From assembly GCF_018417475.1 (NCBI RefSeq), contig NZ_CP054857.1, forward strand, positions 48,168 to 112,167: a DNA stretch of 64,000 nucleotides, read 5' to 3'. The DNA comes from Novosphingobium decolorationis (lineage in GTDB: Bacteria > Pseudomonadota > Alphaproteobacteria > Sphingomonadales > Sphingomonadaceae). Below are positions 30,912-47,227 of the stretch, one piece after another. Each line of letters begins with the position of its first letter. Within the stretch, counting starts at the first letter, position 1. The translations under genes were made by a program, and so were the position numbers. The notes beneath the pieces are model-generated. The model ran no database searches. It was given only the letters and a program-made list of their open reading frames with translations, and was not told where the DNA came from.

Positions 30912-30929
30912 AAAATTGCACCGGTGCAA
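30912..30929. other. parS-like palindrome 1
   Basis: A perfect 18-bp palindrome built on TTGCACC-GGTGCAA with flanking AA/TT, in the gap between parA and parB. The same core occurs at 32311-32334 and 42562-42575. Position next to parAB makes it a centromere candidate. Confidence 0.6.
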
Positions 30930-30939
30930 TTCTTGCGCA

Positions 30940-32310: not shown

Positions 32311-32334
32311 GAAAATTGCACCGGTGCAATTTTC
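32311..32334. other. parS-like palindrome 2
   Basis: The best copy: a perfect 24-bp palindrome, GAAAATTGCACC followed by its exact complement GGTGCAATTTTC. It is located between rep and parA, 3 bases after the rep stop codon. Confidence 0.65.
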
Positions 32335-33538: not shown

Positions 33539-33853
33539 CCTGACCTGTCCAGGATGGTCAAGTCAGGACAGGATTGGCCTTCCTGAGCCCCCATGCGGTC
33601 AGGATAGATCTGCCCCTCCAGGGAAAGCGAGCCTGCAGATTCCGGCGAGTCGTCGCGGTCAGGGGAGGGGAGGGCGATAATCGTGCGCGGAGAGGTCCAT
33701 TCCGTGCCGAAACACGATGCCTGGACGTTGCGTGGGAAGGCCATTGGTGTCTCCCCCAACCGGTCAGGATAACCCCAACCGGTCAGGGAAACGCCCCCGA
33801 CAGGTCAGGAAAGGGCCCCCAATAAGGCAGGCAAACTCCCCCAACCGGTCAGG
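33539..33853. repeat. Iteron array / probable oriV
   Basis: Five repeats of CCAACCGGTCAGG (33756, 33775, 33797, 33819, 33841) are spaced 19-22 bp, about two helical turns; the third and fourth copies are degenerate. Further GGTCAGGA-type half copies occur at about 33562, 33597 and 33657 and a reversed one near 33539. It lies directly upstream of rep, as in iteron-controlled plasmids. Confidence 0.75.
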
Positions 33854-34092
33854 AATACCCCCTTCAACCCCGCTGGAAACCGTCGGTTTTTGCCCCCTGA
33901 ATCTGAATCCCTTAGAATCAGAAAACCTTCCGCTGCAAGCAGCGGCGCTGTTTGAAAGAGGATTCCAGGAGACGGGAAGAAGCCGAGGACCCAACTCGAT
34001 CCCCCGCATCCATAGTTCAAACCGAAAGATCATAGCAAACCAACCTCCGACAGTGGATTGTGCGGATTTAGTGTATATGCTATATTCGGACT

Positions 34093-34959
34093 ATGGCAAC
34101 CACCCCTCAATCCGCTGCTCGGCAGATCGTACAGGACCTCAAAGGTACCTGGCACGGCCGCTATGGCAAGGTCTGCTGCCCAGCTCACGACGATCGTCAT
34201 GCTTCGCTTTCAATTACACCTGGCCGCAAAGCCGTACTCTTCCACTGTTTTGCAGGTTGCACACAAAGCGAGATAATCGGAGCGTTACGGGCTCAGCGGT
34301 TAAATCCACCGATCTCGGAACAGGCCAACGCGCCTGCCAAACCAACAAACGACATGACCTCGTTATGTCGGGACCTATGGGATTACGCACTTCCAACCCA
34401 TGGCACTCCTGCCGAGCGCTACCTTGCAAAGCGTGGCCTTTCGCATTCGACGGCCGGCCGGTACGCGCCCGGCGCCATTACGTACGAGGCAGGCCGCAAA
34501 CTCCGTTTACCCGCACTTTTGCTCCCTATGACCCAAAGCGGCCGGCTCCTAGCCTTATTGCGGATCTTCCTGGAAACCGATGGTCACAAATGCACGTGCC
34601 TCGATGCCGCCAAGCGAACATTGGGCGATCCGCGGCAAAGCGCGGTACATCTTGGAGCACCAGCTGACGACACCATGAATCTGGCCGAAGGCTTCGAAGA
34701 CGCAGAATCGGCCATCGTCCTCAACGAACTTAGCGGCTGCTCGGCCGTATGCGGTGTCGAGCGCTATCGTGATCTGTACATACCAGACCATGTCCGCCGG
34801 GTCCGGGTTTACTCCCAACATGGCAAAGCCGCCCGAGATGGTCTTGTTCGCGCACACCCGCACCTCACGGCAAATGGTCGACGCCTTCAGATCATATTGC
34901 CTCCCCCTGGAGGGGATTGGAACGACGCGCTTCTTGCCAAGGGCAGGGCGAAACGGTGA
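34093..34959 (+). CDS. Plasmid primase-like protein (CHC2 zinc finger + Toprim)
   Basis: A 288-residue protein. The N-terminal zinc finger is VCCPAHDDRHASLSI ... FHCFAGC; the middle holds a helical region; the C-terminal Toprim core contains LAEGFEDAESAIV. This matches plasmid/phage Toprim primases that prime incoming or replicating DNA. It is divergent from rep across the iteron region and first in a rightward set of transfer-leading genes. Primase activity is inferred from the domains. Confidence 0.8.
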   Translation: MATTPQSAARQIVQDLKGTWHGRYGKVCCPAHDDRHASLSITPGRKAVLFHCFAGCTQSEIIGALRAQRLNPPISEQANAPAKPTNDMTSLCRDLWDYALPTHGTPAERYLAKRGLSHSTAGRYAPGAITYEAGRKLRLPALLLPMTQSGRLLALLRIFLETDGHKCTCLDAAKRTLGDPRQSAVHLGAPADDTMNLAEGFEDAESAIVLNELSGCSAVCGVERYRDLYIPDHVRRVRVYSQHGKAARDGLVRAHPHLTANGRRLQIILPPPGGDWNDALLAKGRAKR

Positions 34960-35279
34960 GAGTTCTCGCGATCCTTGGCGGTTTTGCCTGCGTTTGCGCC
35001 GCCATATGGTGGAATGGATCAATCGGCGAGCGACACGACTTCGCGTGTGGCGACGTGGCTCCGAAATCCGTGTGCCAAGGCAGGTCAGGCTTCTTCCGTG
35101 GCTTGCACGATGTTCGGATTCTTTTGGCAAAGTCTGCGCGGCATCGAAGGTTGCCTCAGCTTCACCAAGAGGGTGAAGTTTATAAACAGACGCAGAAATC
35201 AAACCTCGAACGAGGGGAGGGGCAGGGCGCTCCTCGGGCGAATAACGACTTACCTCCCTGTCCAAATCGATTTGGATAG
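34956..35279 (+). CDS. Possible small membrane protein overlapping the primase gene
   Basis: A GTG start at 34956 overlaps the primase stop (GTGA). The predicted ~107 residues begin with one hydrophobic segment (VRVLAILGGFACVCAAIWW) and continue with a basic, low-complexity tail that does not look like a known domain. The coupling and the leader argue for a real gene; the tail argues against. Treat as tentative. Confidence 0.3.
   Translation: MRVLAILGGFACVCAAIWWNGSIGERHDFACGDVAPKSVCQGRSGFFRGLHDVRILLAKSARHRRLPQLHQEGEVYKQTQKSNLERGEGQGAPRANNDLPPCPNRFG
35261..35276. promoter_or_regulatory. 16-bp palindrome upstream of the first SSB-like gene
   Basis: TCCAAATCGATTTGGA is perfectly symmetric and lies 21 bp before the SSB-like start at 35298. 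Its AT-rich centre and position suggest a repressor site near the promoter or ribosome-binding site. Confidence 0.4.
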
Positions 35280-35297
35280 CCTGAAAGGAAGACCTCG

Positions 35298-35624
35298 ATG
35301 CCCCAAAACATTGCAGAATTCCGGATTATCGGCCGTATTGGAAAAATCCGCCCTCTGGAGAAAGTTACCTATGTCAGCGTAGCGTCGAACTACAACCGGC
35401 GAGACGGGGACGACTGGAAGACTGATACCCATTGGAACAGCGTCGTGTGCTTTCCCAAGATCGCCGCCCAGGTCGAGAACGCCGAGGAAGGCGACCTTGT
35501 TCACATCACCGGGCGGACCCGCGAGAACAGCCATTCGGGTGACGCCGGGATCGTCTACAAGACCGAGCTGATCGCGGATTCCTTCTCAATCCTAGCCCGC
35601 AAGATGGCCGAGCAGGACAACTAG
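35298..35624 (+). CDS. ssb: SSB-like OB-fold protein 1
   Basis: A 108-residue short single-strand DNA-binding-like protein: AEFRIIGRIGKI, SVASNYNRRDGDDW and GDLVHITGRTREN follow the OB-fold strand pattern of SSB. It lacks the long acidic tail of chromosomal SSB. A paralogue of similar length lies at 43045-43374. Plasmid SSBs in leading regions protect incoming single-stranded DNA and can dampen SOS. Confidence 0.78.
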   Translation: MPQNIAEFRIIGRIGKIRPLEKVTYVSVASNYNRRDGDDWKTDTHWNSVVCFPKIAAQVENAEEGDLVHITGRTRENSHSGDAGIVYKTELIADSFSILARKMAEQDN

Positions 35625-35628
35625 AAAC

Positions 35629-36021
35629 GGGGAGGGGCGGGAGCGGCCGGCCGGCACGGCTCTATCTCCGCTTCGCTCCGACCGAACCCACGAAGCGGTT
35701 TCGTCCTATTCAGGTCACGATCCTCGCTCGAAGTGGAGGCCGCGCCTGCGCGGCCTTTTTCGTTTCTCAGTCTCAAGGGGGGCGGCCTCCCCCCTTCCCG
35801 GCAAGGGCCAGGCCGTCTTCGCGCGGCAAACCGCGCTGCGCTTGGCTCGTGCGAGGGTGTCCCCATCCTTCCGTCCGCTGCGCCTCCGTGCAGGACGGGT
35901 GATCCCCCTCCCTCGCACTCGGCCCTCCGGTGCCGGTTCAACCCTCCCGGCTTCGCCAGCGGGCAGAAGCCGATGGATGCCATCGCCTTCGGCTCCATCG
36001 AGGAAAAAGGGAAGCCAGCAC
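35629..36021. repeat. Long repeated leader, copy A (before ardC)
   Basis: About 393 bp of GC-rich non-coding DNA that is repeated at 38358-38747. Shared blocks include GGCACGGCTCTATCTCCGCT, GGCCGTCTTCGCGCGGC, CGGGTGATCCCCCTCC and CTTCGCCAGCGGGCAGAAG. Both copies end at a start codon (here ardC). The conserved order and spacing point to a functional element, possibly a single-strand promoter or structured leader. A short frame (35973-36038) starting MDAIAFGSI runs into ardC. Confidence 0.7.
35738..35760 (+). terminator. Rho-independent terminator after SSB-like gene 1
   Basis: GGCCGCGC-CT-GCGCGGCC followed by TTTTT. It lies 114 bp past the SSB-like stop, inside leader copy A, and separates the SSB transcript from ardC. 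Leader copy B lacks this T-run. Confidence 0.7.
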
Positions 36022-36038
36022 ATGACCCGCAAGATTAA
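35973..36038 (+). promoter_or_regulatory. Short upstream reading frame overlapping the ardC start
   Basis: ATG GAT GCC ATC GCC TTC begins a 21-codon frame (MDAIAFGSI...) that stops 17 bases inside ardC. In leader copy B the same nine residues start at 38699 and run in frame into the DUF3768 gene. Conservation of the peptide with different downstream frames suggests it is translated and couples or controls the downstream gene. Confidence 0.45.
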
Positions 36039-36966
36039 GACCACCCACCAGAACACCGCCCCGCGCGCAGACGTTTACGAGGAAGTCACCAACCAGATTA
36101 TCGCCATGCTCAAAGAGGGCACCCGCCCATGGTCACCCCGTTGGGCATCGGGCCTTGCCTCTCTTCCCCGTCGCCATGAGGGGACCGCTTATCGGGGCAT
36201 CAATATCCTTTTGCTTTGGACCGCTGCCATGACGCGCGGCTACGCCAATCCCTATTGGATGACCTACCGCCAAGCCGCCGAGCTGGGCGGGCAGGTCCGC
36301 AAGGGCGAAAAGGGCAATCTTGTCGTGCACGCCGGAACTTTCACCCCTAAGGACGGCGAAACCGGTGAGCCTGTCACCAACAGCGAGGGCGAGGAAACGA
36401 CCCGCAAGTTCCTGAAGCGGTATGTCGTGTTCAACGTCGAGCAGATCGATGGGCTTGATATGTCCAGGTATCCCGCGCCTGCGGTCGAGATGAAGAACCG
36501 CGACGAACGCGATACGGAACTGGACGAAGCCTTTGCCCGCTGGCCCGTTCCCTACGCCGAGGGCGGATCGAACGCTTTCTATGATCCTGCCGCCGACCGT
36601 ATCCAGATGCCCGCCTTTGCTGACTTTGAAAGCGGCAATGCCTTCTATGCGACCCTCGCCCATGAGGCTGTGCACAGCGCGGGGAGCGCCAAGCGGCTCG
36701 CTCGCGAAACCCTGCGCGATTACGGAAAAGCGCTAGAAATCAGGGCAGAGGAAGAGTTGATTGCAGAGATCGGAGCAGCCATGCTTTGCGCGCAACTTGG
36801 AATGGAGCCGACCGAGCGCGAGGACCATGCCGCTTACGTGGCTTCGTGGTTGACCGCCCTTCGCAATGACAAGCGCGTAATCTTTCGCGCCGCCAGCGCG
36901 GCACAGGCTGCCAGCGAAATGATCCTGTCCCATATGGATGTGCCTGCGCAGACGATCGCCGCGTGA
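36022..36966 (+). CDS. ardC: ArdC-like antirestriction protein
   Basis: A 314-residue protein with an N-terminal ssDNA-binding domain (VYEEVTNQIIAMLKEGTRPW) and a C-terminal zincin metallopeptidase domain with LAHEAVHSAG (H-E-x-x-H) and the downstream EELIAEIGAAML helix. ArdC protects transferred DNA from restriction in the recipient. ATG at 36022 follows the leader repeat. Length and domain order are normal. Rightward, like the other predicted leading-region genes. Confidence 0.88.
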   Translation: MTRKIKTTHQNTAPRADVYEEVTNQIIAMLKEGTRPWSPRWASGLASLPRRHEGTAYRGINILLLWTAAMTRGYANPYWMTYRQAAELGGQVRKGEKGNLVVHAGTFTPKDGETGEPVTNSEGEETTRKFLKRYVVFNVEQIDGLDMSRYPAPAVEMKNRDERDTELDEAFARWPVPYAEGGSNAFYDPAADRIQMPAFADFESGNAFYATLAHEAVHSAGSAKRLARETLRDYGKALEIRAEEELIAEIGAAMLCAQLGMEPTEREDHAAYVASWLTALRNDKRVIFRAASAAQAASEMILSHMDVPAQTIAA

Positions 36967-36972
36967 GGCAGG

Positions 36973-37054
36973 ATTTGAGGGCGGCGACGCGGTCGCCCTC
37001 AAAATGCGGATATGCAGAATTTTGGGCGCTTTTGGTGCCAAAAACGCCCAAAAT
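36973..37054. terminator. Two hairpins between converging genes
   Basis: First, TTTGAGGGCG-N10-CGCCCTCAAA at about 36975-37002. Second, a nested 36-bp palindrome at 37019-37054: ATTTTGGGCG, C, TTTTGG, TG, CCAAAA, A, CGCCCAAAAT. Both lie between ardC (rightward) and the 37119-37460 gene (leftward), so a bidirectional terminator is the likely role. Confidence 0.6.
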
Positions 37055-37118
37055 ATGCCTTTTAAGGCGGAAATCGCGCCTTGTTACAGGCTGTTCATAG
37101 CGCCTGCGTGATGGAGGT

Positions 37119-37460
37119 CTAACGCGATCTGGCCGAGCGGGAACCGAGATCAAGCGAGACTGCATTGACGCCCGGAGCAACGGCTTTGCGTGGCTCTCTG
37201 CGCGTGTCCATCGTAATCCATTGCCGCCCGTAAGTGCGTGCCACCAGATAGAAAACCGAACCGTGGCAACCGACAACCATGCACTTGTCACGCAGGTCGA
37301 TCGGCGAGCCGTTTGCGCCAAAGCGCAAAATCTGGATCGACACGTCGACCCGCTGCTGCATCCCGCAGCAGCGGCACTGCGATCGCGCCAGCGCGTTCGT
37401 GCGCGCCAGCTCGCCCCAGGTCGAAGCCCAACGAGGGAAAAGGGCGGCAATTTCGGTCAT
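37119..37460 (-). CDS. Hypothetical protein with Cys cluster (113 aa)
   Basis: A 113-residue protein beginning MTEIAALFPRWASTW with CRCCG near residue 30 and a later CMVVGCHG, possibly a zinc site. No recognised family. It is the only leftward gene in this rightward leading-region stretch and is fenced by hairpins on both sides. A Cys-rich fold and clean start argue that it is real. Confidence 0.5.
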   Translation of the reverse strand: MTEIAALFPRWASTWGELARTNALARSQCRCCGMQQRVDVSIQILRFGANGSPIDLRDKCMVVGCHGSVFYLVARTYGRQWITMDTRREPRKAVAPGVNAVSLDLGSRSARSR

Positions 37461-37530
37461 GGGATGAGCCTAGCAATCCGGCTCGTCCCCGTCCATGATG
37501 CCTGTTGCGCCAAGCCACTGGCGGACAAAG

Positions 37531-37563
37531 AAAAGGCCCACCTTTCGGCGGGCCTTTAATTTC
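37531..37563. terminator. Bidirectional terminator-like hairpin
   Basis: AAAGGCCCACC-TTTC-GGCGGGCCTTT followed by AATTT, and T-rich on the other strand too. It sits between the leftward Cys-cluster gene and the rightward HEPN gene and insulates the two. Confidence 0.55.
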
Positions 37564-37606
37564 CTTAGACGATGAGGGGAGGCGTAAGCCCGCGTTCTCA
37601 AAGCCG

Positions 37607-38332
37607 ATGACCCCTTATATGGCGGTAGTGACGGTTTCGTCAATACTGTGCGCAGACAGGATAGCGACCTTGCCTTTCACTCCCGCTGAGCTTGAGGATC
37701 TGCCCGAAGTTATCTCGGCGCCGCGCTTTGCCACCTATCTCCAGGCGAAGGGCAATAGCCGGGGAAAGGCGCTCGAGCTCTACGAATGGAATCTCGACAT
37801 TTCCTCGGCCCTGATTGTTCCTCTCCAGGTCTGCGAAGTAGCGGTTCGCAACGGGATCGCAGAAGCCATCGAAGCCGTCCATGGCGCGAACTGGCCCTGG
37901 AACAATGGTTTTATCCGAAGCCTGCCGCGGCCTAAAAGTCGGATTCGCTACAACCCGGCCGACGACCTTCAGGCCTGTGCCCGCAAGCTGCCAACGACTG
38001 GCAAGATCATCGCGGAGCTCAAATTTGCCTTCTGGGAGAACATCTTCACCGCCGGACAGGATAGCCGTCTTTGGAACGCACACTTCCGGGCGGTCTTTCC
38101 AGGAGCACCGGGAGGGCAGAGCGTGGCCCAATGCCGCGGGCAGGCCTATGCCGACCTTCAGGGCATCCGCCACTTGCGCAACCGGATCGCGCATCATGAG
38201 CCGGTCTTCACACGCAATCTGACCGATGACTATCAACGCATCCATGACATGATTGCCTGGCGTAGTCCGACCGCCGCAGCGTGGATGGATGGCAAGCAGA
38301 ACGTCACCGCCTTGATCGCGCAGAAGCCCTGA
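37607..38332 (+). CDS. HEPN/Abi-like protein
   Basis: About 241 residues, mainly helical, ending in a HEPN-type segment with RNRIAHHEPVF near residues 191-201 (R-x4-H). This is the pattern of Abi_2/AbiD-F-like abortive infection proteins, which are RNases or toxin-like. Start placed at MTPYMAVV; the frame opens earlier without a sensible N-terminus. It sits between ardC and DUF3768, an odd place for a defence gene and possibly a tool against competing plasmids or phages. Confidence 0.65.
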   Translation: MTPYMAVVTVSSILCADRIATLPFTPAELEDLPEVISAPRFATYLQAKGNSRGKALELYEWNLDISSALIVPLQVCEVAVRNGIAEAIEAVHGANWPWNNGFIRSLPRPKSRIRYNPADDLQACARKLPTTGKIIAELKFAFWENIFTAGQDSRLWNAHFRAVFPGAPGGQSVAQCRGQAYADLQGIRHLRNRIAHHEPVFTRNLTDDYQRIHDMIAWRSPTAAAWMDGKQNVTALIAQKP

Positions 38333-38357
38333 TTTCGTTTCAGATCAGGGGATAGGA

Positions 38358-38747
38358 CGGGGAGGGGAGCGACCTTGCGGCACGGCTCTATCTCCGCTTT
38401 GCTCCGACCGAACCCGTGTACCACGGTTTCGTCCCATGCGGGTGACGATCCTCGCTCACAGATGCGGCGGCGCGGCCGTCAGGCTTGCCTGTCCGACTAA
38501 GGAGGGGGCGGCCTCCCCCTCCCTGCCCAAGAGCCGGGCCGTCTTCGCGCGGCAGGTCCGCGCTGCGCTTGGTGATCGCGGCGGTCTCCCCACCCTTCCT
38601 TCGCTGCCGCTTCCGTGCAGGGCGGGTGATCCCCCTCCGCCGCGATCAGCTCTCCATGTGCATTCCCACCCCCCGGCTTCGCCAGCGGGCAGAAGTCGAT
38701 GGACGCCATCGCCTTCGGCTCCATCAGGAAAAAGGGAAACAAGCACA
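38358..38747. repeat. Long repeated leader, copy B (before DUF3768)
   Basis: The second copy of the ~390-bp leader found at 35629-36021. Conserved blocks are in the same order, and it ends AGGAAAAAGGGAA...GCACATG at the DUF3768 start. Copies differ by scattered substitutions and small indels, so it is an old duplication kept under constraint. Confidence 0.7.
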
Positions 38748-39046
38748 TGCCAGATTTCGCAAAAATGTCCGACGACGAACGCGGGGAATATGCAGCGCGC
38801 GTTGCCACTCTCAATGATCAACTGCGAGCCGACCTCAGCAACCCCCAGTATGGGCGCGTGGTACTGACTCAGGGCATTCGCTCCCTGATCGAGGACACGG
38901 ACCTTTCGCCGTTCTGGATCGATAGCGCCGCCCTGTTGCGCATCGTGCGCGATTTTGCCGATTTCAGCGAAGACAACGACCCCCATGGAGAGCGCGACTT
39001 TGGTGCGTTCGAATGGAAGGAAACCCGCTGCTTCTGGAAGATCGAC

Positions 39047-40534
39047 TTGTATGATGCTTATCCGGTCAAGGTCTATTCCTTTCAAATTTCGGGCGACTTG
39101 GGTTGCGCTATTCCGAGGTTCAGGCATGCGCGATCCGCGCATAGACTTGTATCCGGTCGAGAGCGTTCTCTCGCACCACAATCCGTATTCACATCCTTGG
39201 ACCGAGCAACGGAGGATGCGGACCAAACTACTACTGGGCGTTTCTTAGGCGCCATCAATCTTCACGGTCACGCATCCAACCAATCCGCGAGGCCTAACGA
39301 GCCTGTTGCAACAAAGGCATCAAGCCTGGCGGAGCTCAGCGCCTTGAGGAACCAAGCCGGTTTCCACAAAGCGCCAAAGGGCGATCAACAATTTTCGTGC
39401 CAGCGCCACAATTCCCACTTTGGCAGAGCGTTTCCCTTTGCCTTTGAAGCGTTCGCGGTACCACTGGGCGAGTTCGCTATTCGGTTGATAGCGGAGCCAA
39501 CCCCAGGCCAGTTCAACCATCAAGCATCGAGCCCCCCGGTTTCCTGCCTTGCTGATGCCTTGGTCTCTTTCAACTCCACCGCTCGAATATGGACTGGGCG
39601 CCAGCCCCAGGAACGACGCAAGATGGCGCCGACTGGAATAATTCCGACAAAAGACTTCCGCGACCAGCATCGTGGCGCCATTTGCGCCGATACCTCGCAA
39701 TTGTTGAAGGCGCTCGGCCTTGTCAGGGCATGGAAAGCCGGTTGTTTCGTCTGCAAGGGTTTCCTTCCGGGCGACCTCGACTTGCTTCAGCTGCGAATTC
39801 AGCAGGCTAAGGCGCTCGAAGCATCGGGAGACCTGTTGACGGAGGTTCGGATCGAGATTCCGGCCATCCCCTGTTTGCATCCCATCCAACTGCGAAGCCC
39901 AGTCCCCGCCTTTCAGGGCTCGCAAATGCTTGATCCCATGAAGCGCGAACAGAGCGCGGATCCGAGAAATGATCTTGGTTCGCTCACGGATCAGGTCTCC
40001 GCGTTCACGCATCAACCGCCTGGCATCCTCCTCCTGCGGTGTCGGTACCGTAACCAGTCGACACACACTGTGATCTCCGCCGAGATAAGCTTTCAAAATA
40101 CCGATCATCGCTTCGGCATCAATCCGGTCGGTTTTGACCCGTTTTCCCCGTCTAGAAACGAGGAAACTCGCGGGATCGAGCACATAAGTGTCGATGCCCC
40201 TGTCTCGAAGCAGTCGAGCAAGCCAGAAGCCGTCATATCCAATTTCAAAGCAGAGTCGGATAGCGGCCGAACCGCCAACTCTGGTTTCGGCGCGGGCCTC
40301 AAGTTTGCGGACGTGACGAAGCAGGGCCTCCCCGTCGCCAGCAGGAATGTTCGCCAGCGCCACCTTGCTCGCTCCTGGAAGCAGGGAGGCAACAAGCCAA
40401 GATCGTTTGCTCAACTCGACGCTCACATAGATGGGCGCCGTTTCAGCGTCGGTAATGGTTGCAGGCATCATGATGCTCTCTCCAGTCGTCGTCGAAACAT
40501 GAGTTATCGGCCGAAACAGGGCCGGCTCCATAGG
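39047..40534. mobile_element. IS110-family element (IS1111-like layout)
   Basis: About 1.49 kb between the two DUF3768 pieces; the exact junctions are uncertain by a few bases (near ATC at 39041-39043 and 40535-40537). One leftward transposase, ~63 bp before its start and ~270 bp after its stop. A long 3' non-coding end is the IS1111-subgroup layout, where the bridge RNA would be encoded. No terminal inverted repeats, as expected. Confidence 0.75.
39320..40471 (-). CDS. IS110-family DEDD transposase
   Basis: A 383-residue IS110 recombinase. The N-terminal RuvC-like DEDD domain contains YVSVELSKRSWLVA, FEIGYDGFWLARLLRD and KTDRIDAEAMIGIL; the C-terminal Tnp20 domain contains LRGIGANGATMLVAEV and FLGLAPSPYSSGG with the catalytic serine region. 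Start at MMPATITDAE. Intact, so the element may be mobile. Confidence 0.92.
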   Translation of the reverse strand: MMPATITDAETAPIYVSVELSKRSWLVASLLPGASKVALANIPAGDGEALLRHVRKLEARAETRVGGSAAIRLCFEIGYDGFWLARLLRDRGIDTYVLDPASFLVSRRGKRVKTDRIDAEAMIGILKAYLGGDHSVCRLVTVPTPQEEDARRLMRERGDLIRERTKIISRIRALFALHGIKHLRALKGGDWASQLDGMQTGDGRNLDPNLRQQVSRCFERLSLLNSQLKQVEVARKETLADETTGFPCPDKAERLQQLRGIGANGATMLVAEVFCRNYSSRRHLASFLGLAPSPYSSGGVERDQGISKAGNRGARCLMVELAWGWLRYQPNSELAQWYRERFKGKGKRSAKVGIVALARKLLIALWRFVETGLVPQGAELRQA

Positions 40535-40701
40535 ATCTACTACGACGCCGCGCTTGAGGGGGGATCGCCGGACCCGGCTGATCCGGGTTTGACCTGCCGC
40601 GTCATCACGATCCTTCGCGCCGACGAATACTGATCGGTCAGCATCGAGGGCGGCGCAGCCGTCGCCCTCACCTTCCCCCCTATTCTCGAGGATTTCCAAC
40701 C

Positions 40702-42479
40702 ATGACCACCATTCTCAAGCTGTCGCAGCTTCGCCTTTCCCCGCTCAATGTCCGCAAGGTCGAGCCGACCGGGATCGAGGCTTTGGCCGACGATATTCAC
40801 GCGCACGGCCTCATCCAGAGCCTTGGCGTCTACGAGGATGCGGGCAAGTTCTGGGTGTTCGCCGGAGGGCGCCGCTTTCGCGCGCTCGAGCTTCTCAAGA
40901 AGCGCAAGGACGTGACCGCTGCCTTTCCCGTCCCCGTCATCATCAAGGACAAGGCCGATGCCATCGAGCTTTCGCTGGTAGAGAACACCCAGCGCGAGAA
41001 CATGCACCCAGCGGACGCGGTGTCCGCATTCGCCCAGCTTCGCGACGAGGGCGGCATGAGCGCCGAGGATATTGCGGCCCGCTTTGGTTACAGCACTGGC
41101 CATGTCGCCAAGTTGCTCCGTCTCGGCAGTCTGGCTCCTGCCCTGCTGGAAGCTTTCGCCGCCGACACGATCGGCATGGAAGCCGCTCAGGCGTTCACCA
41201 TGAGCGAGGATCACGCCGCGCAGATCGAGGCATTCGAGCGTTGCGGTAACAGTCCCGCCGCGATCCGCCGCGCCCTCACGACCCAGAAGGTTCGCACCGA
41301 TTCATCGACCTTCTGTTTCGTCGGTCTGGAAGCCTATGAGGCCGCAGGCGGCACGATCACCCGCGACCTGTTCGGAGAGACCGGGTATGCCGATGATCCG
41401 GTTTTGCTGGACGAACTGGTTTCCGCCAAGCTGGAGAGCATTCGTGCCGGGTTCGAGGCCGAGGGCTGGAAGATCGTCGAGGTTTCCGCCGAGGCGCCCC
41501 ACGACATTTACAGCCGTGGTTATCTGCGCCCCGAGACGTGCGAACCGACCAACGAGGAAGCGGCTGAGCTTGCCGGGCTCGATGCCCAGATTGAAGCGCT
41601 GGAAGCCGAAGGCCGCGAGGATAGCGAAGAAGCCGCCGCACTGTTTGACCAGCGCGACGCGATCACGGAAGGCTTCGAGGCATTCACCGACGCGCAGAAG
41701 GCCAACGGCGGGGTTTGTGCCTATATCGGCTACAAAGGCGATTTAGTCCTTCGCCACTGGACCGTTTACGTCGAGCGGCTCACCGCCAAGGTCGAAGAAT
41801 CCGGTCCTTATGCCGCCAGCATGATCGAGCGTTTGACGGCCATTCGCACGATGGCGCTGCAACATGAGGTTGCGGCCCAGCCTGCCCTTGCCCTCGACAT
41901 TCTGCTGGATAGCATGACCGCGCAGTTGCTCCACGGCCAGCAGAGCTACAACCTTGCCGCCGATATTCATCCGACCGTGACCCGCCACACGGTCGAGCAG
42001 GACATGCTTGATGGCAGCCGCCTTGCCGACCTTCCTGCCCAGCTTGTCGAGCGGTTCGCGGATATTCCCGCGGATCGTCGTTTCGAGACGATCCGCGCTA
42101 TGGATGAGGCTGACAAGATGCAGTTGCTCGCTGCATTGGTGGCGACCTCCATCAATGGCACAATCTTCAATCACGGCGGGATCGGCGCGCGGCAGGCTAC
42201 AGCCGACAAGTACGCCGATGCCGCTGGCCTCGATCTTCGCCAGCACTGGACACCGGGCCAGACCTTTTCGATCGACTCAAGAAGTCGAGCCTGCTGGCAA
42301 TCCTGGCCGAAGAATGCGGCGAGGGCGCCGCCGAGAATTGCGCCAAGATGAAGAAGGGCGACCTTGCCGTTGCCGTCAACGAGCGGCTGCCCGTTGGCTG
42401 GTTGCCCGAACCGGCCCGCCGGTTTACGCCTCTTCGCGAGCAGCCCACGGACGAAGGCGAAATGTCCAAGGTTGCTTGA
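40702..42479 (+). pseudogene. ParB-like leading-region protein (one frameshift near the 3' end)
   Basis: A ~592-residue ParB/Spo0J-like protein. The N-terminal ParB domain has LSPLNVRKVEPTGIEALADD, GGRRFRALELL and VENTQRENMHPADAV; then an HTH (MSAEDIAARFGYSTGHVAKLLRLG) and a long C-terminal region. The frame breaks at T4 (42265-42268); adding one T gives FFDRLKKSSLLAILAEECG and runs to the stop at 42477-42479. Unlike the partition ParB it has no ParA partner, and such proteins are typical of plasmid leading regions. Confidence 0.8.
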
Positions 42480-43044
42480 TGTGCTGGCCGGTGGAGCGTG
42501 TCGCTCCACCGGCCTCCCTTTCGATGAGGAAGCTGCGCGTTCGGCTCCTGCCTAGTCGCATTTGCACCGGTGCAATTGTAGCCGCATCCGGCTTCCATGT
42601 CGCTGCCGGAGCCCCGCTTTCTTGATACGCGCTGTACGCAAATCGGCGCTCTTCACCACAAAAGGGCAGGGCGCAATGCCGGTTCGGCGGCGTCGTTTGA
42701 ACGCTCTCGCTGCTGGGTGAACGGACGTTCCGACAGATCGCCAAAGGGTGGGCTCCCAACAGCTATCGCAGTGCGACTGGGGACATCCGCGTCCTGATCA
42801 GAATCCTGAACCGAGTGAGAGCGAAGCTCTGTGTATAATGGGAACGTCCGTCTTCGCGGGTGCTGTCCGACGCATCTGGTGTCCGGCCCTTGCTATGCGG
42901 GAAGGGCTTCGCCCCAAGCAGAAAGCCGCTGCGATGCCGCTACGGTTTCCACGACGTGGACCCTCCGTCTTTCGACTTGCCCGCGCATGGTCCGCCCCCC
43001 GTTCCGGCGATGCGTCAGCAACCTTTTGAAGAAGGACAGGACCC
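42480..43044. other. Intergenic region before SSB-like gene 2, 565 bp
   Basis: No clear gene. It holds the third parS-like palindrome (42562-42575) and a GC-rich leader before the second SSB-like gene that does not match the two long leader repeats. A short frame without a start codon (about 42715-42838) is discussed among rejected items. Confidence 0.4.
42562..42575. other. parS-like palindrome 3 (outlying)
   Basis: TTGCACC-GGTGCAA, the same 14-bp core as the two palindromes in the parAB/rep block, but 10 kb away, between the ParB-like and SSB-like genes. It may be a secondary ParB loading site or an operator for the ParB-like protein next door. Confidence 0.5.
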
Positions 43045-43374
43045 ATGCAAAATATCGCAGAGTTTCGGATCATCGGCCGCGTCGGGAAAATCGAGATCAA
43101 GGACAAGGTAGCCTTCCTCGACATCGCGGCAAACTATAGCCGCAAGGTCGGCGAAGAATGGGAAGACGACCCGCACTGGAACCGCGTAACCCTATTTGGC
43201 AAGGCCGCCGAGCGCGCCGCTCGGATCGGTAAGGGCGATCTTCTCCATATCGCCGGCCGGGTACGGCAAAGCAGTTATCAGCGCGAAGACGGCGAGCGGA
43301 TCTTTAACGTTGACCTTATCGTCGAGCGGTTCGCGGCCCTGCTGCGCAGTGAAAATGGGCGAGGTGGCGATTAG
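43045..43374 (+). CDS. ssb: SSB-like OB-fold protein 2
   Basis: A 109-residue paralogue of SSB-like protein 1: AEFRIIGRVGKIEIKDKVAF, NYSRKVGEEWEDDPHWNRV and GDLLHIAGRVRQSSYQREDG. No acidic tail. It is the SSB closest to the predicted oriT and would be among the first genes to enter a recipient. Confidence 0.8.
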   Translation: MQNIAEFRIIGRVGKIEIKDKVAFLDIAANYSRKVGEEWEDDPHWNRVTLFGKAAERAARIGKGDLLHIAGRVRQSSYQREDGERIFNVDLIVERFAALLRSENGRGGD

Positions 43375-43401
43375 AAGCTGCTCGTAGGTTCCCGAAGGAT
43401 C

Positions 43402-43436
43402 GAAGGCGGTGCAACAGCGCCGCCTTCGTCGTTTTA
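43402..43436 (+). terminator. Terminator between SSB-like gene 2 and the TraC-like gene
   Basis: GAAGGCGG-N10-CCGCCTTC followed by GTCGTTTTA. It lies 28 bp past the SSB stop and 18 bp from the end of the opposing gene, so it can serve both. Confidence 0.7.
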
Positions 43437-43453
43437 TACTGTGAGCCTCAAGC

Positions 43454-43762
43454 TCACTCCAGGCCTGACTGAGCCAGCGTTGATCGGGCTGACGTCGGAC
43501 GTTCGAGTTCGGCGAGCTTTTGCGCGATCTCTGCGGCTTCATGCGTTGCGATGGCCTTGGCAATCGCGCGCGCATCGGCCTTCTCCATAGCCGATATCTT
43601 TACGCGCCCCAAGGCCGCGAACAACGTGTCGCGCCCGGCGTCGCGGGCAGCCTTCTCAGCTTCCCTGGCTTGTTGGTCGAGCGCGGCGAGTTCGGAGCGC
43701 AGCGCCGCGCGTCGGTTCTCGATAGCGGCGAGGGAGGATTTTTTTCGGGCGGGTTTCGGCAT
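43454..43762 (-). CDS. TraC/TraD-like small conjugation protein
   Basis: A 102-residue Lys/Ala/Arg-rich coiled-coil protein (MPKPARKKSSLAAIENRRAAL ...). The frame upstream runs into IS630 DNA, so the ATG at 43762 is chosen. Size, charge and placement beside the predicted oriT and opposite the MobC/relaxase genes match the small TraC/TraD proteins of Ti-type and related plasmids. Exact family not certain. Confidence 0.55.
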   Translation of the reverse strand: MPKPARKKSSLAAIENRRAALRSELAALDQQAREAEKAARDAGRDTLFAALGRVKISAMEKADARAIAKAIATHEAAEIAQKLAELERPTSARSTLAQSGLE

Positions 43763-44079
43763 GAAAACGGCTCCGTGAAGTTCGAGGATGAGCGCGGATT
43801 CTGTCTGATGCCAAGCGTGCTCGCTAGATGTGCTGGCCACGAAATGCGATGAATGGAGTCTGCGCATAGATAGCGCGCACGTCGGAGGAAGGCTGCATCT
43901 TGTTGCCTGGGCGATGTGCTTTAGAATGCAGGCAATTCCTCCTTCCACGTTTCTTGGCCTGTTCAGTTTTGGCGGTGGCCCAAGAAGGGGAATTTGGGTT
44001 CGGATAGGGATGGCAGGATATGCCAATTGGCACCAATGATAACATTGGTTCGTTTGGCGGCCGCTGCACGGGGCTTCTA
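43763..44079. other. Probable oriT region with IncP-like nic site
   Basis: On the minus strand, TATCCTG-CC (44020-44012) matches the MOBP/IncP nic consensus YATCCTG|C, with predicted cleavage between 44014 and 44013. It is directly preceded by the perfect palindrome TGCCAATTGGCA (44032-44021), as inverted repeats precede nic in RP4-type oriTs. It lies between the TraC-like gene and the MobC/relaxase genes, now separated from the latter by IS630 copy 3. Confidence 0.65.
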
Positions 44080-45229
44080 GTGGATTGACCGCAACGAAAG
44101 AGTCCGTCTGGGGATTCCCACCGGCTTGCAGGCGTGCCAGTCTCGGAGGATGCGCGATGGGATCAGCTTCACCGTTTCGGCTTCCGACCGTCAACGCCTG
44201 GACGACATCGTGTCGGCTCCCTTGAGCCCGCAGAAACATGTCTGGCGCGCCCGTATCGTGCTTTTGAGCAGCGATGGCCTGGGGACCTCGGCGATCATGG
44301 CGGCCACAGGCAAGTCGAAGACCTGCGTGTGGCGCTGGCAGGAGCGCTTCATGCACGAAGGTGTAGATGGTCTTCTTCGCGACAAGTCCCGTCCGCCCGG
44401 CAAGGCGCCAGTGTTGCCCAAGCGCGTGGCCGAGATTGTCCGGCTGACGCAGGAACCGCCGCCGCATGAGGCAACCCACTGGACGGCGCGCGCGATGGCC
44501 AAAGCGGTCGGGCTTGCCGTTTCGACAGTGCAGTCGATCTGGAAGGCGCATGGGCTTGCTCCGCATCGCTGGCGCAGCTTCAAGCTGTCGAACGATCCGG
44601 CTTTCGCCGAAAAGCTCACCGAGATCGTCGGCCTCTATGTCGATCCGCCCGCCCATGCGGTGGTCCTGTCGATCGACGAGAAATCGCAGATACAGGCGCT
44701 CGACCGCACCCAGCCCGGCCTGCCGATGAAGAAGGGCCGCGCCGGTACCCTGACCCATGACTACAAGCGCCACGGCACGACCACGCTGTTTGCTGCACTC
44801 AACGTACTCGACGGAACCGTCATCGGGCAGAACATGCAGCGTCACCGCCACCAGGAGTTCATCCGCTTCCTCAATCGGATCGAGCGCGAAGTGCCCAAGG
44901 ATAAGGCGATCCACGTGATCCTCGACAACTATGCCGCACACAAGAAGGACAAGGTCCAGGAGTGGCTCGCCCGCCATCCGCGCTGGACTTTCCACTTCAC
45001 GCCAACTTCTTCCTCATGGCTCAATGCCGTCGAGGGCTTCTTCGCAAAGCTGACCAGGCGGCGCCTCAAGCACGGCGTCTTCCACTCCGTCGTCGAGCTC
45101 CAGGCTGCCATCAACCGGTTCATCCGGGAGTACAATGCCGATAACCCCAAGCCCTTCATCTGGAAGGCCAATCCGGATGACATCATCGCCGCTCGAAATC
45201 GAGGGTTCCAAACGTTGGAGTCAATCCAC
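44080..45229. mobile_element. IS630-family element 3 (different type)
   Basis: A 1150-bp element with ends GTGGATTGAC... and ...GTCAATCCAC, flanked by TA at 44078-44079 and 45230-45231. It is unrelated in sequence to the IS630 pair at 18-25 kb. It separates oriT from the mobilisation operon and may displace the operon promoter. Confidence 0.88.
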
Positions 45230-45232
45230 TAG
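44150..45232 (+). CDS. IS630-family transposase
   Basis: About 360 residues: HTH domains (TSAIMAATGKSKTCVWRWQE; STVQSIWKAHGLAPHRW) and a DDE core with LSIDEKSQIQALD, VILDNYAAHK and SSSWLNAVEGFFAKLTRR. The stop TAG is completed by the flanking target TA. Intact. Confidence 0.93.
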   Translation: MRDGISFTVSASDRQRLDDIVSAPLSPQKHVWRARIVLLSSDGLGTSAIMAATGKSKTCVWRWQERFMHEGVDGLLRDKSRPPGKAPVLPKRVAEIVRLTQEPPPHEATHWTARAMAKAVGLAVSTVQSIWKAHGLAPHRWRSFKLSNDPAFAEKLTEIVGLYVDPPAHAVVLSIDEKSQIQALDRTQPGLPMKKGRAGTLTHDYKRHGTTTLFAALNVLDGTVIGQNMQRHRHQEFIRFLNRIEREVPKDKAIHVILDNYAAHKKDKVQEWLARHPRWTFHFTPTSSSWLNAVEGFFAKLTRRRLKHGVFHSVVELQAAINRFIREYNADNPKPFIWKANPDDIIAARNRGFQTLESIH

Positions 45233-45235
45233 GTC

Positions 45236-46042
45236 ATGATGGTAGGTGCACGATTGTCCGAGGAACTGGTGGCCGAGATCGATCGTCTCGCCATCGCCCA
45301 GGGACAGAGCCGTGCGTCGTGGATCGCCAGCACCTTGCAGCGCGCGGCGCTTTCATCGCAGAACGACAACCTGCCTGTGACCGAGGTGCAGGGCAGGGGC
45401 CATCCCGACGATTATGTGCGTGTCACTGTTCGTCTTCATCGCCACGAAATCGATGCGATCGAGGATGTGGCCGGGCCGTTGCACCTCACCCGAAATGAAT
45501 GGATCAAGCGCACCTTGCGTTGGGCTTTGTGGGACAAGGCGGGGGCGCTGCGGCTTGCACCTGTGAGCCAGACCGAGCTTGGCAAGCTGCGTAAGCAGAT
45601 CCTGGCGATTGGCCGAAACATCAACCAGGCCGTGCACGCGATGAACGCGGCCAACCAGCCTGAGAGCCGCCTCGAAATGCATCGCGTGGCCGCGCAGTTT
45701 CTAGAGACCTGCGCCGACCTGAAGGCGCTAGTGTTCAAGACCCGGCGCGAGCTTTCGTCCTATGTCGGCGGCGAAGTCGGCTACTGGGTCGAGGCGCACA
45801 AGGCACAAGACGAGGACGGAGAGGGTGAGCTTTCGCTTCACACCCGGCACGCTCGACAGCCTCGCGGGCGTCTATGCGCCGCCCAAGAAGCGCAAGCCAG
45901 GAAGCGGCGGCGGGAAGGCGTCGGCTCCGAAAGCGGGGGGAACGCTCCTTGCCTTCGCGGTCTCTTCAATGCTTCCTTCCCCGTCCAAACCGAGGAACGA
46001 GAACCGGCCCAGCGCACAGGCCAAGCATGCTTTTGGCGGTAG
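45236..46042 (+). CDS. MobC-like relaxosome accessory protein
   Basis: The N-terminal ribbon-helix-helix (GARLSEELVAEIDRLAIAQG) binds DNA near oriT, and the MobC region is LGKLRKQILAIGRNINQAVHAMN. The meaningful protein probably ends at about residue 197 (…AQDEDGEG): one extra G in the GGG at 45823-45825 would create a TGA overlapping the GTG of the relaxase gene. As written, the frame runs on in nonsense to 46042. ATG at 45239 is an equal start. Confidence 0.7.
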   Translation: MMVGARLSEELVAEIDRLAIAQGQSRASWIASTLQRAALSSQNDNLPVTEVQGRGHPDDYVRVTVRLHRHEIDAIEDVAGPLHLTRNEWIKRTLRWALWDKAGALRLAPVSQTELGKLRKQILAIGRNINQAVHAMNAANQPESRLEMHRVAAQFLETCADLKALVFKTRRELSSYVGGEVGYWVEAHKAQDEDGEGELSLHTRHARQPRGRLCAAQEAQARKRRREGVGSESGGNAPCLRGLFNASFPVQTEEREPAQRTGQACFWR

Positions 46043-47227
46043 CACTTCGGCGTCCGCAACGGGTCGCGCCGTTCGTACCATGGAGCGCACGGCGCGGCGC
46101 GCGCCGGAGGTCGTCGTGCGCATCACCGGGCGCCAGCATGGTGGGGGCATGTCCTTGCAAACTTCTCCTACATCAGCCGTCTGGGGCATGGCGAGGACGT
46201 CCAGGTGCCTCTCTACACGAGCGATGGCGATGTTCTTCGCGATGGACAGGACATGCGCATTCTTGCCCAGGACTGGCAGGAGTGGGAAGTCGGAGGCGAT
46301 GATCGGCGCAAGGGCGCGACCTCGATTTCGATGGTCCTTTCGATGCCGGCCGCGACCGACCCCGAGGCGCTGAAGGCGTCGGCGCTTGATTTTGCGCGTG
46401 AGGAATTTGCCAATCGCTCGTGGGTTGCCGCTCTGCACGTCGACCGCGATCACCCGCACGTTCACCTGACAATTGCACGTCGTGATCATGATGGGCGGCG
46501 GTTTCACCCGAACCGTGATGATCTCTTTCGGTATCGTCAGCGCTTCGCGCAGAAGCTGCGTGATCGAGGAGTCGAAGCGAACGCCACGCCTGCCCGCGCG
46601 CGTGGGATCGATCCCAAGCACGAGCCTATTGCTGCGAAGAAAATGCGCGAGAAGGGACAGGTTCCTCGCATCGACAAGAGCCGTGCCGAGCGGGCCGACG
46701 TGTTTCGGGAGCGCGGCATTCCCGATCCTGTGAAGAAGGTCCTGGCCGATCGTCATGCGACGGTTTTGCAGACATATGCCAAGTCGATCACAGAGCTTTC
46801 GTCTTCCCCGTCCCTGGCCGATCAGGTGCGGGCACAGATGCTATCCAAGTTCATCGAGACGATGCCGGAGCCCGAAAGCAATTCGGAACGAGCCGCTCGA
46901 ATTGGCTTGGTGTCGTCAGAGCGGGATCTATCTTCAACTTCGGATGATCCCCTTGCGCTTGCACTGAAGCGTTCGGCGGAAATGACGAAGCGCCTCCGAG
47001 AAAAGGCCGCTCGTGAGCCTTCATTTTCGAGCACCAACCTTCGTCAGGATCGTTCCCCTGACGGTTCTCTTGCCGAGCGTCAGAACGATCTTTCGAATGG
47101 CAACCGCGAGAAGAGTGCCCGCGAGGCGATCAATCGAATGGATGATTTGGTTCGTAATGCTCGCGACGTGGATCGCGAGCAGCGCGAGCGTAATCGCTCA
47201 AAGGATAGGGGAGGGCCCGAGCGTTGA
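45825..47227 (+). pseudogene. MOBP-type relaxase (frameshifted)
   Basis: The N-terminal part (VSFRFTPGTLDSLAGVY... EVVVRITGRQHGGG) is in one frame; the rest (HVLANFSYISRLGHGEDVQV ... ) is in another. Adding one G to GGGGG at 46143-46147 joins them. The catalytic histidine triad is HVDRDHPHVHLTI near the middle of the gene. The relaxase nicks oriT and is carried into the recipient. The C-terminal part is charged and helical. About 467 residues if restored. Confidence 0.82.

Follow-up and report, generated by a model that had tools for sequence, protein, structure and literature searches.

The window analysed here is a stretch of 64,000 nucleotides (nt) from Novosphingobium decolorationis (C2:48168-112167), located on one contig of a two-contig genome of 4.75 Mb. 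A plasmid's leading and mobilisation region occupies its portion from 34 to 47 kb, and the subject of this analysis is core B, a conserved element of about 85 nt found in the leaders upstream of two genes of this region. The order of genes and features is a Toprim primase-like gene (34093-34959), ssb (35298-35624), leader 1, the antirestriction gene ardC (36022-36966, with ArdcN and MPTase-PolyVal domains), a gene whose match to an Abi-like family is below threshold, leader 2, a DUF3768 gene (38747-40633), a ParB-like leading-region gene (40702-42480), another SSB-like gene nearest the nicking site (43045-43374), the nicking site (nic) itself, and then a mobC-like gene and a MobA/VirD2-type relaxase gene (together 45254-47227, plus strand). 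The initial annotation, made from the letters of the sequence, had placed SSB, ParB-like, DUF3768, ArdC and SSB genes on the plus strand in this arrangement, and both order and strand are borne out.

On the minus strand, a nic sequence of MOBP type, TATCCTG/CC (TATCCTGCC, the slash marking the cut), occupies 44020-44012, of which 44013-44020 is assigned as the nic site. The nic consensus of the MOBP or RP4 type is ATCCTG/C. Inverted repeats, CCAATG-TTAT-CATTGG and ATTGGTGCCAAT, lie 5' of nic on the same strand (44021-44050), with similar ones in the related loci L010 and L003. The bare 8-mer YATCCTGY is no rarity, occurring 10 times on both strands of the window, and the copy assigned as nic lies just upstream of the mobC and relaxase genes. 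Similar repeats and nic sites precede the relaxase operon in L010, L003, L140 and L144, the last being the backbone of L003. In L006, L008, L141 and L142 a nic site with different flanking sequence occupies the corresponding position; no such motif is present in the stretches of L005 and L007 that were searched. In all nine loci (the window and eight relatives), nic and the relaxase gene are on opposite strands. A nic core next to an inverted repeat, both lying upstream of the mobC and relaxase genes, is the arrangement of a MOBP origin of transfer (oriT), and the resemblance to the oriT of RP4 is drawn here through the consensus of its nic site. From the placement and strand of nic, the minus strand is predicted to be nicked and transferred, entering a recipient from 44013 towards lower coordinates, and would thus be the template of the leading genes. 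A MOBP-like nic at this place, and a leading region on the side that it predicts, had both been put forward earlier, and the conservation in relatives and the strands of the genes agree with them.

Leaders 1 and 2 align with a mean column identity of 81%, the match beginning near 35625 and 38351 and extending to the start codons of ardC (36022) and DUF3768 (38747). Each leader is composite. Its first part is module A, of about 115 nt (35631-35744 and 38357-38472, minus strand), and it is followed by core B on the minus strand at 35841-35925 (conserved part 35855-35911; 75.6 bits with the covariance model) and at 38568-38652 (conserved part 38582-38638; 83.2 bits). The conserved parts end 110 and 108 nt before the start codons of ardC and DUF3768, so that the stretches from core B to the genes cover 35926-36021 and 38653-38746 on the plus strand. 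Folded as DNA, the two leaders have z-scores of -3.64 and -3.12. The initial annotation had described two leaders of about 390 bp each; they are conserved as it said, but they are not unitary, consisting of module A and core B with a terminator-like stem in copy 1 only. This stem (35735-35758, with a T run to 35765, plus strand) stands between ssb and core B and suggests that transcription of ardC starts within leader 1. Stems like intrinsic terminators were found upstream of 29 of 142 elements, compared with 19 on the other strand of the same stretches and 9.9 in shuffled sequences, and with so modest an enrichment the intrinsic terminator was rejected as a general upstream partner of core B. 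A small open frame, MDAIAFGSI, occurs near the 3' end of both leaders; in copy 2 it is in frame with DUF3768, in copy 1 out of frame with ardC.

Read on the plus strand, core B consists of GGTNTCCCC-R-x-CCTTCC, a variable tip and GTGCAGG-y-CGGGYGATCCCCCTCC, set within a stem of free sequence. A BLAST search of leader 1 against PLSDB returned 74 records with 139 places, mostly from sphingomonads but also from Cereibacter, Paracoccus, Caulobacter, Methylobacterium, Nitrosospira (Betaproteobacteria) and Sedimenticola (Gammaproteobacteria); at least 8 of the 60 matches listed cover only module A (the first ~110 nt). Scanning a collection of species genomes with the right arm of core B gave at least 120 stretches, and among the 80 listed nearly all are from Alphaproteobacteria, with Thiothrix, Pseudoxanthomonas, Pseudomonas veronii and metagenome contigs labelled Saprospiraceae or only Proteobacteria also among the matches listed. 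A mismatch-tolerant scan, which does require a loose left arm, found 160 clean places, 145 of them distinct, in 134 collected loci and none in reversed sequences. The loci hold 152 right arms, and the 13 outside the strict list comprise 7 duplicates, 4 arms at locus ends and 2 whose left arm is further off or missing. Among sampled genomes, core B is present in 6 of 385 from the class (pattern with at most one mismatch) and in 13 of 199 from the family (covariance model), the genome under study being included in both counts, and one stretch with the element motif was found in viral contigs. One 111-nt element used as query had no match in 20,395 Escherichia coli records including their plasmids and none in phages.

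The core B family spans Alpha-, Beta- and Gammaproteobacteria. Conservation of the leader on other plasmids had been named in advance as a check, and the leader was found on many; the earlier placement of the element in a sphingomonad plasmid group holds for those plasmids, but the spread is far wider. In Rfam, the window has no match at the gathering threshold, and leader 1 has seven weak matches at E-values up to 10, none of them telling and STAXI not among them. No description of the element was found among the matches listed from open-licence PubMed Central papers, and two core B strings, as well as DUF3768, occur in none of the open-licence PubMed Central papers searched. Divergent core-B-like matches to the covariance model at L145:2512-2595 (48.1 bits) and L132:6629-6702 (16.2 bits, E-value 0.96) hint at further subfamilies.

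The fold of core B was evaluated on an alignment, A2, of 72 distinct cores in the orientation of the transferred strand. It consists of 70 collected cores and the two window copies, drawn from 99 distinct sequences after 26 with long tip loops, 1 with a deletion and 2 with wrong spans were left out. RNAalifold, unaided, predicts an outer stem and an inner helix. In the stated structure of 22 pairs, 91.4% of cells are paired (74.1% in shuffled alignments), 280 cells have changes on both sides (97.6 shuffled) and the covariation score is 0.433, compared with 0.134 for shuffled alignments and at most 0.114 for slid structures. Less telling is the number of pairs with any double change, which is 13 against 11.3 in shuffles, 16 of 500 shuffles reaching 13. 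Eleven of the 12 pairs of the outer stem vary while 85.8% of its cells remain paired. All or nearly all rows of A2 have the same internal loop, AGGGGGA, and the same TGCA and GAAG strings, a constancy that is partly due to the search pattern, except for the left-arm part. These computations support a fold for core B that has an inner helix as well as a covarying outer stem and whose internal loop is invariant. A conserved fold of the entering minus strand as single-stranded DNA (ssDNA) had been set out beforehand as something to look for, and it was found.

The mismatches in this fold indicate which strand is under selection. Where one strand has a G-T pair, its complement has an A-C mismatch. 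Counts for the plus strand are from 141 of 143 rows, the other 2 having deletions that prevented parsing, and these 141 gave 132 unique elements; the ten pairs of the outer stem include 53 A-C and 12 G-T combinations, pair r-C has 59 A-C and 68 G-C, and pair x-y has 26 A-C and 5 G-T. In the orientation of the transferred strand, all pairs of the 72 cores of A2 include 85 G-T and 15 A-C. Mutation bias on the transferred ssDNA was considered as the cause of this asymmetry and rejected, since the local bias runs the opposite way: substitutions between the window and L010 comprise 216 A/G and 269 C/T (53 and 118 at third codon positions), and unpaired columns of the element have 57 A/G and 255 C/T. 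The G-T lean of the transferred strand against the local mutation bias implies that selection acts on pairing of the minus strand.

Loop types and folding energies were then compared between strands. C(GNA)G-type triloops are outstandingly stable in DNA. With stems of at least three pairs, 133 such triloops, spread over 93 of 143 elements, lie on the transferred strand and 10 on the plus strand, compared with 19 and 38 in background coding stretches of equal length; with stems of four the counts are 75 and 1, against 0 and 5 in the background. For the heptamer GCGAAGC the counts are 66 on the transferred strand and 3 on its complement. Folded as DNA, the transferred strand is the more stable of the two in 136 of 142 elements, compared with 49 of 136 background stretches. 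UNCG loops number 1 on the transferred strand and 2 on the other; UUCG loops were taken as an argument for RNA in the case of STAXI, in the part of that paper used here (PMC2864571). Together, the wobble pairs, the DNA-type triloops and the folding energies support ssDNA of the transferred strand as the folding molecule, and core B is a case in which comparative data separate a DNA fold from an RNA fold.

The same data bear on whether core B could work as RNA, either as a structured 5' leader of the mRNA or as an antisense RNA from the minus strand. The element does lie within the 5' leader, a short way before the start codon, and covaries strongly. G-U pairs on the minus strand would equally be expected of an antisense RNA, and as RNA that strand is the more stable in 129 of 142 elements (71 of 136 in the background). 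A leader of the mRNA would be expected to show G-U wobbles on the sense strand and to fold as well there, but the plus-strand mismatches are A-C and the plus strand folds worse than the other in most elements, and the cis-regulatory leader was rejected on these grounds. Any RNA form must further contend with frequent DNA-type triloops on the minus strand, the near absence of UNCG loops and the lack of an Rfam match. An RNA function is thus judged quite improbable.

The orientation and placement of core B were examined next to the genes around it. Sixteen plasmid loci contain both a relaxase gene and one or more elements; of the 34 elements in them, 30 are on the strand of the relaxase gene, and the covariance model adds one element in L133 and one in L145, both on the relaxase strand, for 32 of 36. 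This count leaves out L143, where the relaxase is not annotated in the stretch, and L133 had no element by pattern. The 16 loci are partly dependent (L003 and L144 share a backbone, and L006 and L139 are related), and MOBF and MobA_MobL loci are counted by the strand of the relaxase gene rather than by an established transferred strand. The relaxase genes of L006, L010 and L139 are annotated as hypothetical and match Pfam Relaxase, and those of L134 and L135 match MobA_MobL. For 118 of 141 elements the distance from the core end to the start codon is 77-121 nt (median 99), as determined with an open reading frame chooser that mildly preferred near starts. The proteins encoded downstream (n = 73) include 17 with ArdcN, 13 with HTH_ParB, 10 with DUF3768, 5 with DUF932 and 3 with ArdA, along with methylases, RadC and DUF4942; the set was obtained from 76 by removing 4 judged by eye to be the wrong gene and adding the window's ardC, with six proteins swapped for annotated or shorter frames. 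Plasmids often have several copies of core B, most with their own gene. Inverted copies of core B lie close to relaxosome genes at L006:10339-10392 and L139:26495-26549, opposite to the other copies in these loci, and the one in L139 precedes a gene annotated as MerR on its own strand.

Several copies before different genes could also mark a repeat that moves or recombines and so carries gene cassettes from plasmid to plasmid. Like core B in its proposed form, attC sites and REP sequences are folded DNA of one strand. The existence of solo or inverted copies agrees with such a repeat, and near-identical copies within L003 and within L004 fit recent copying or gene conversion. The regular position upstream of genes at near-fixed spacing argues against it, and no recombinase is common to the annotated neighbourhoods when these are compared by eye, no systematic search having been made. 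A mobile repeat is therefore considered very improbable.

Taken together, a DNA fold of the transferred strand, a near-fixed distance to antirestriction-type genes and a location in the region that enters first fit a single-stranded promoter. The preferred interpretation, to which we assign a probability of roughly 60%, is that core B is a strand-specific ssDNA element serving as a promoter for early antirestriction expression and apparently not homologous to those described. According to this model, the plasmid enters the recipient single-stranded, and core B on the entering template strand would fold into a hairpin of two helices that includes the invariant internal loop, in many cases with a small DNA triloop hairpin within or next to it. 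This structure would then recruit a polymerase, most likely the host RNA polymerase and possibly with the help of another factor, and RNA synthesis would start towards the gene about 100 nt downstream. ArdC, the DUF3768 protein and the like could in this way be produced while the plasmid is still single-stranded and ahead of any attack by restriction, and synthesis of the second strand would remove the fold and shut the gene off.

Several observations weigh against this promoter model. Sites resembling sigma-70 promoters are not enriched, since matches at 8 or more of 12 positions occur in 6 of 141 elements, compared with 11.0 in shuffles, and without enriched -35 and -10 boxes the polymerase is unexplained. 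In the window the covariance model finds only two matches, with none upstream of either SSB-like gene or the ParB-like gene. Four of the 34 elements in the orientation count are reversed, one behind the relaxase operon in each of L003 and L144 and one beside nic in each of L006 and L139 (Caulobacter). GNRA tetraloops, which also suit RNA, number 46 on the transferred strand and 25 on the other (27 and 18 in the background), a difference of little weight. The wobble and triloop counts come from sequences that share descent and are not phylogenetically independent. Finally, loci L011-L130 were fetched by an exact right-arm motif, so the invariance of the right arm is there by construction; the left arm, the outer stem and the x-y pair are outside the fetching pattern, and the same right arm is present in loci L003-L010, which were obtained by BLAST.

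The main rival to the promoter model is that core B is a priming site (an ssi or single-strand origin), whose fold recruits a primase or primosome to start the complementary strand and affects gene expression only indirectly. Priming would account for a strand-specific DNA fold and for hosts in three classes, and the strictly kept CCTGCA at the helix end contains CTG, the triplet at which E. coli primase starts. Leader 1 has a Toprim primase-like gene nearby, toprim genes are annotated in L140, L141, L142 and L144, and the title of the Frpo paper is said to name both priming and gene expression as uses of Frpo. Priming alone, however, needs no near-fixed distance to the start codons of particular genes, nor does it call for several copies per plasmid, most with a gene of their own. 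As the whole explanation it appears unlikely, but priming could also be a second function of core B.

Module A was analysed as the second conserved element of the leaders. It occurs in 73 PLSDB records from sphingomonads and rhizobia, and none of the four examined for it (L146-L149) has a core B right arm with fewer than six mismatches within 4 kb. In these, module A stands before genes annotated as SprT in L147 and L149, before an ardC-like gene in L148, and 2.7 kb before traA, on the traA strand, in L146. Its RNAalifold pairs in the orientation of the transferred strand include 13 G-T and 3 A-C, the same lean as in core B in a small sample of 19 sequences. A more tentative extension of the promoter model is that core B and module A are sisters in a new class of ssDNA gene switches that is present with several MOB types and in three proteobacterial classes and is read without -35 and -10 boxes. 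The reader of such a switch might be RNA polymerase acting in a new way, a primase-like start, or a factor that recognises the AGGGGGA loop together with the DNA triloop.

Such elements may have been passed over by the searches made so far. To our knowledge, F and IncI plasmids are those for which experiments have shown early expression from incoming ssDNA. One survey, in the portion drawn on here, used BLAST with five known Frpo/ssi sequences and candidates chosen by -35 and -10 boxes (PMC11541004), and another, likewise in part, used the five known sequences and 13 putative Frpo sequences from the former (PMC12826799). An element with neither boxes nor sequence similarity would be missed by both. 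Should the promoter model be correct, early expression of anti-defence genes would extend far into Alphaproteobacteria and beyond, leading regions and new anti-defence genes could be located by one pattern, and an ssDNA start signal lacking the known promoter boxes would be available for fishing out its reader.

The plasmid copy in the window has further features around these leaders. The DUF3768 gene is split by an IS110-family element, with matched pieces at 38747-39055 and 40538-40630, and it is uninterrupted in the relatives L031 and L140. Judged by comparison with L010, the frames of the ParB-like gene (near 42.26 kb) and of the relaxase gene (45825-47227, near 46.15 kb) are broken, which makes the transfer proficiency of this copy doubtful. 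An IS630-family transposase gene at 44126-45232, between nic and mobC, separates oriT from the relaxosome genes, and there is none at this place in L010. The Toprim primase-like gene and ssb (34093-35624) are followed by the leader, and toprim and ssb are likewise neighbours in L140, L141 and L144. Iteron-like short direct repeats around GGTCAGG lie at 33588-33855, upstream of a replication initiator gene. The palindrome TTGCACCGGTGCAA occurs at 30912-30931 and 32314-32333, around parAB, and at 42560-42577, between the ParB-like gene and ssb, and is perhaps a partition or regulator site.

Core B was finally compared with known systems. STAXI (RF01728), as presented in the part of its description used here, is a structured motif near ssb and antirestriction genes that was considered as possible ssDNA, but it consists of repeated pseudoknots with UUCG loops and was judged more likely to be RNA (PMC2864571). 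Core B differs from it in being a single hairpin with DNA-type triloops and no Rfam match. The complementary-strand origins of the phage G4 type and the hairpin promoters of phage N4 are hairpins formed by ssDNA, with small and highly stable loops such as GCGAAGC. Core B can be likened to both by this loop type, whereas their hosts and genes are different.

The closest comparison is with the Frpo/ssi elements of F and ColIb-P9, of which the initial annotation had taken the leaders to be representatives. On F, according to the part of the report drawn on here, early expression of the genes that follow Frpo1 and Frpo2 requires these elements, which are said to recreate the -10 and -35 boxes (PMC9849209). 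Like the Frpo/ssi elements described in that portion (PMC9849209), core B is located in the leading region upstream of leading genes, on the strand that is predicted to be transferred and to act as template, is conserved as a fold of that strand as ssDNA, and is present in more than one copy per plasmid; the genes typical of leading regions, in the part of the survey used here, include antirestriction, methylase and ssb genes (PMC11541004). The two differ in their folds and in their boxes. A stem mimicking a -35/-10 promoter, which had also been named as something to look for, is not supported: sigma-70-like sites are no commoner than in shuffles, matches at 9 or more of 12 positions occur in 1 of 141 elements (0.6 in shuffles), and the one promoter-like site within 35200-39000 is on the minus strand inside DUF3768. 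By this defining feature core B falls outside Frpo, and the likeness appears to be one of place and strand rather than of sequence. The analogy in the proposed manner of working stands, with core B probably acting on incoming ssDNA of these plasmids much as Frpo does on F.

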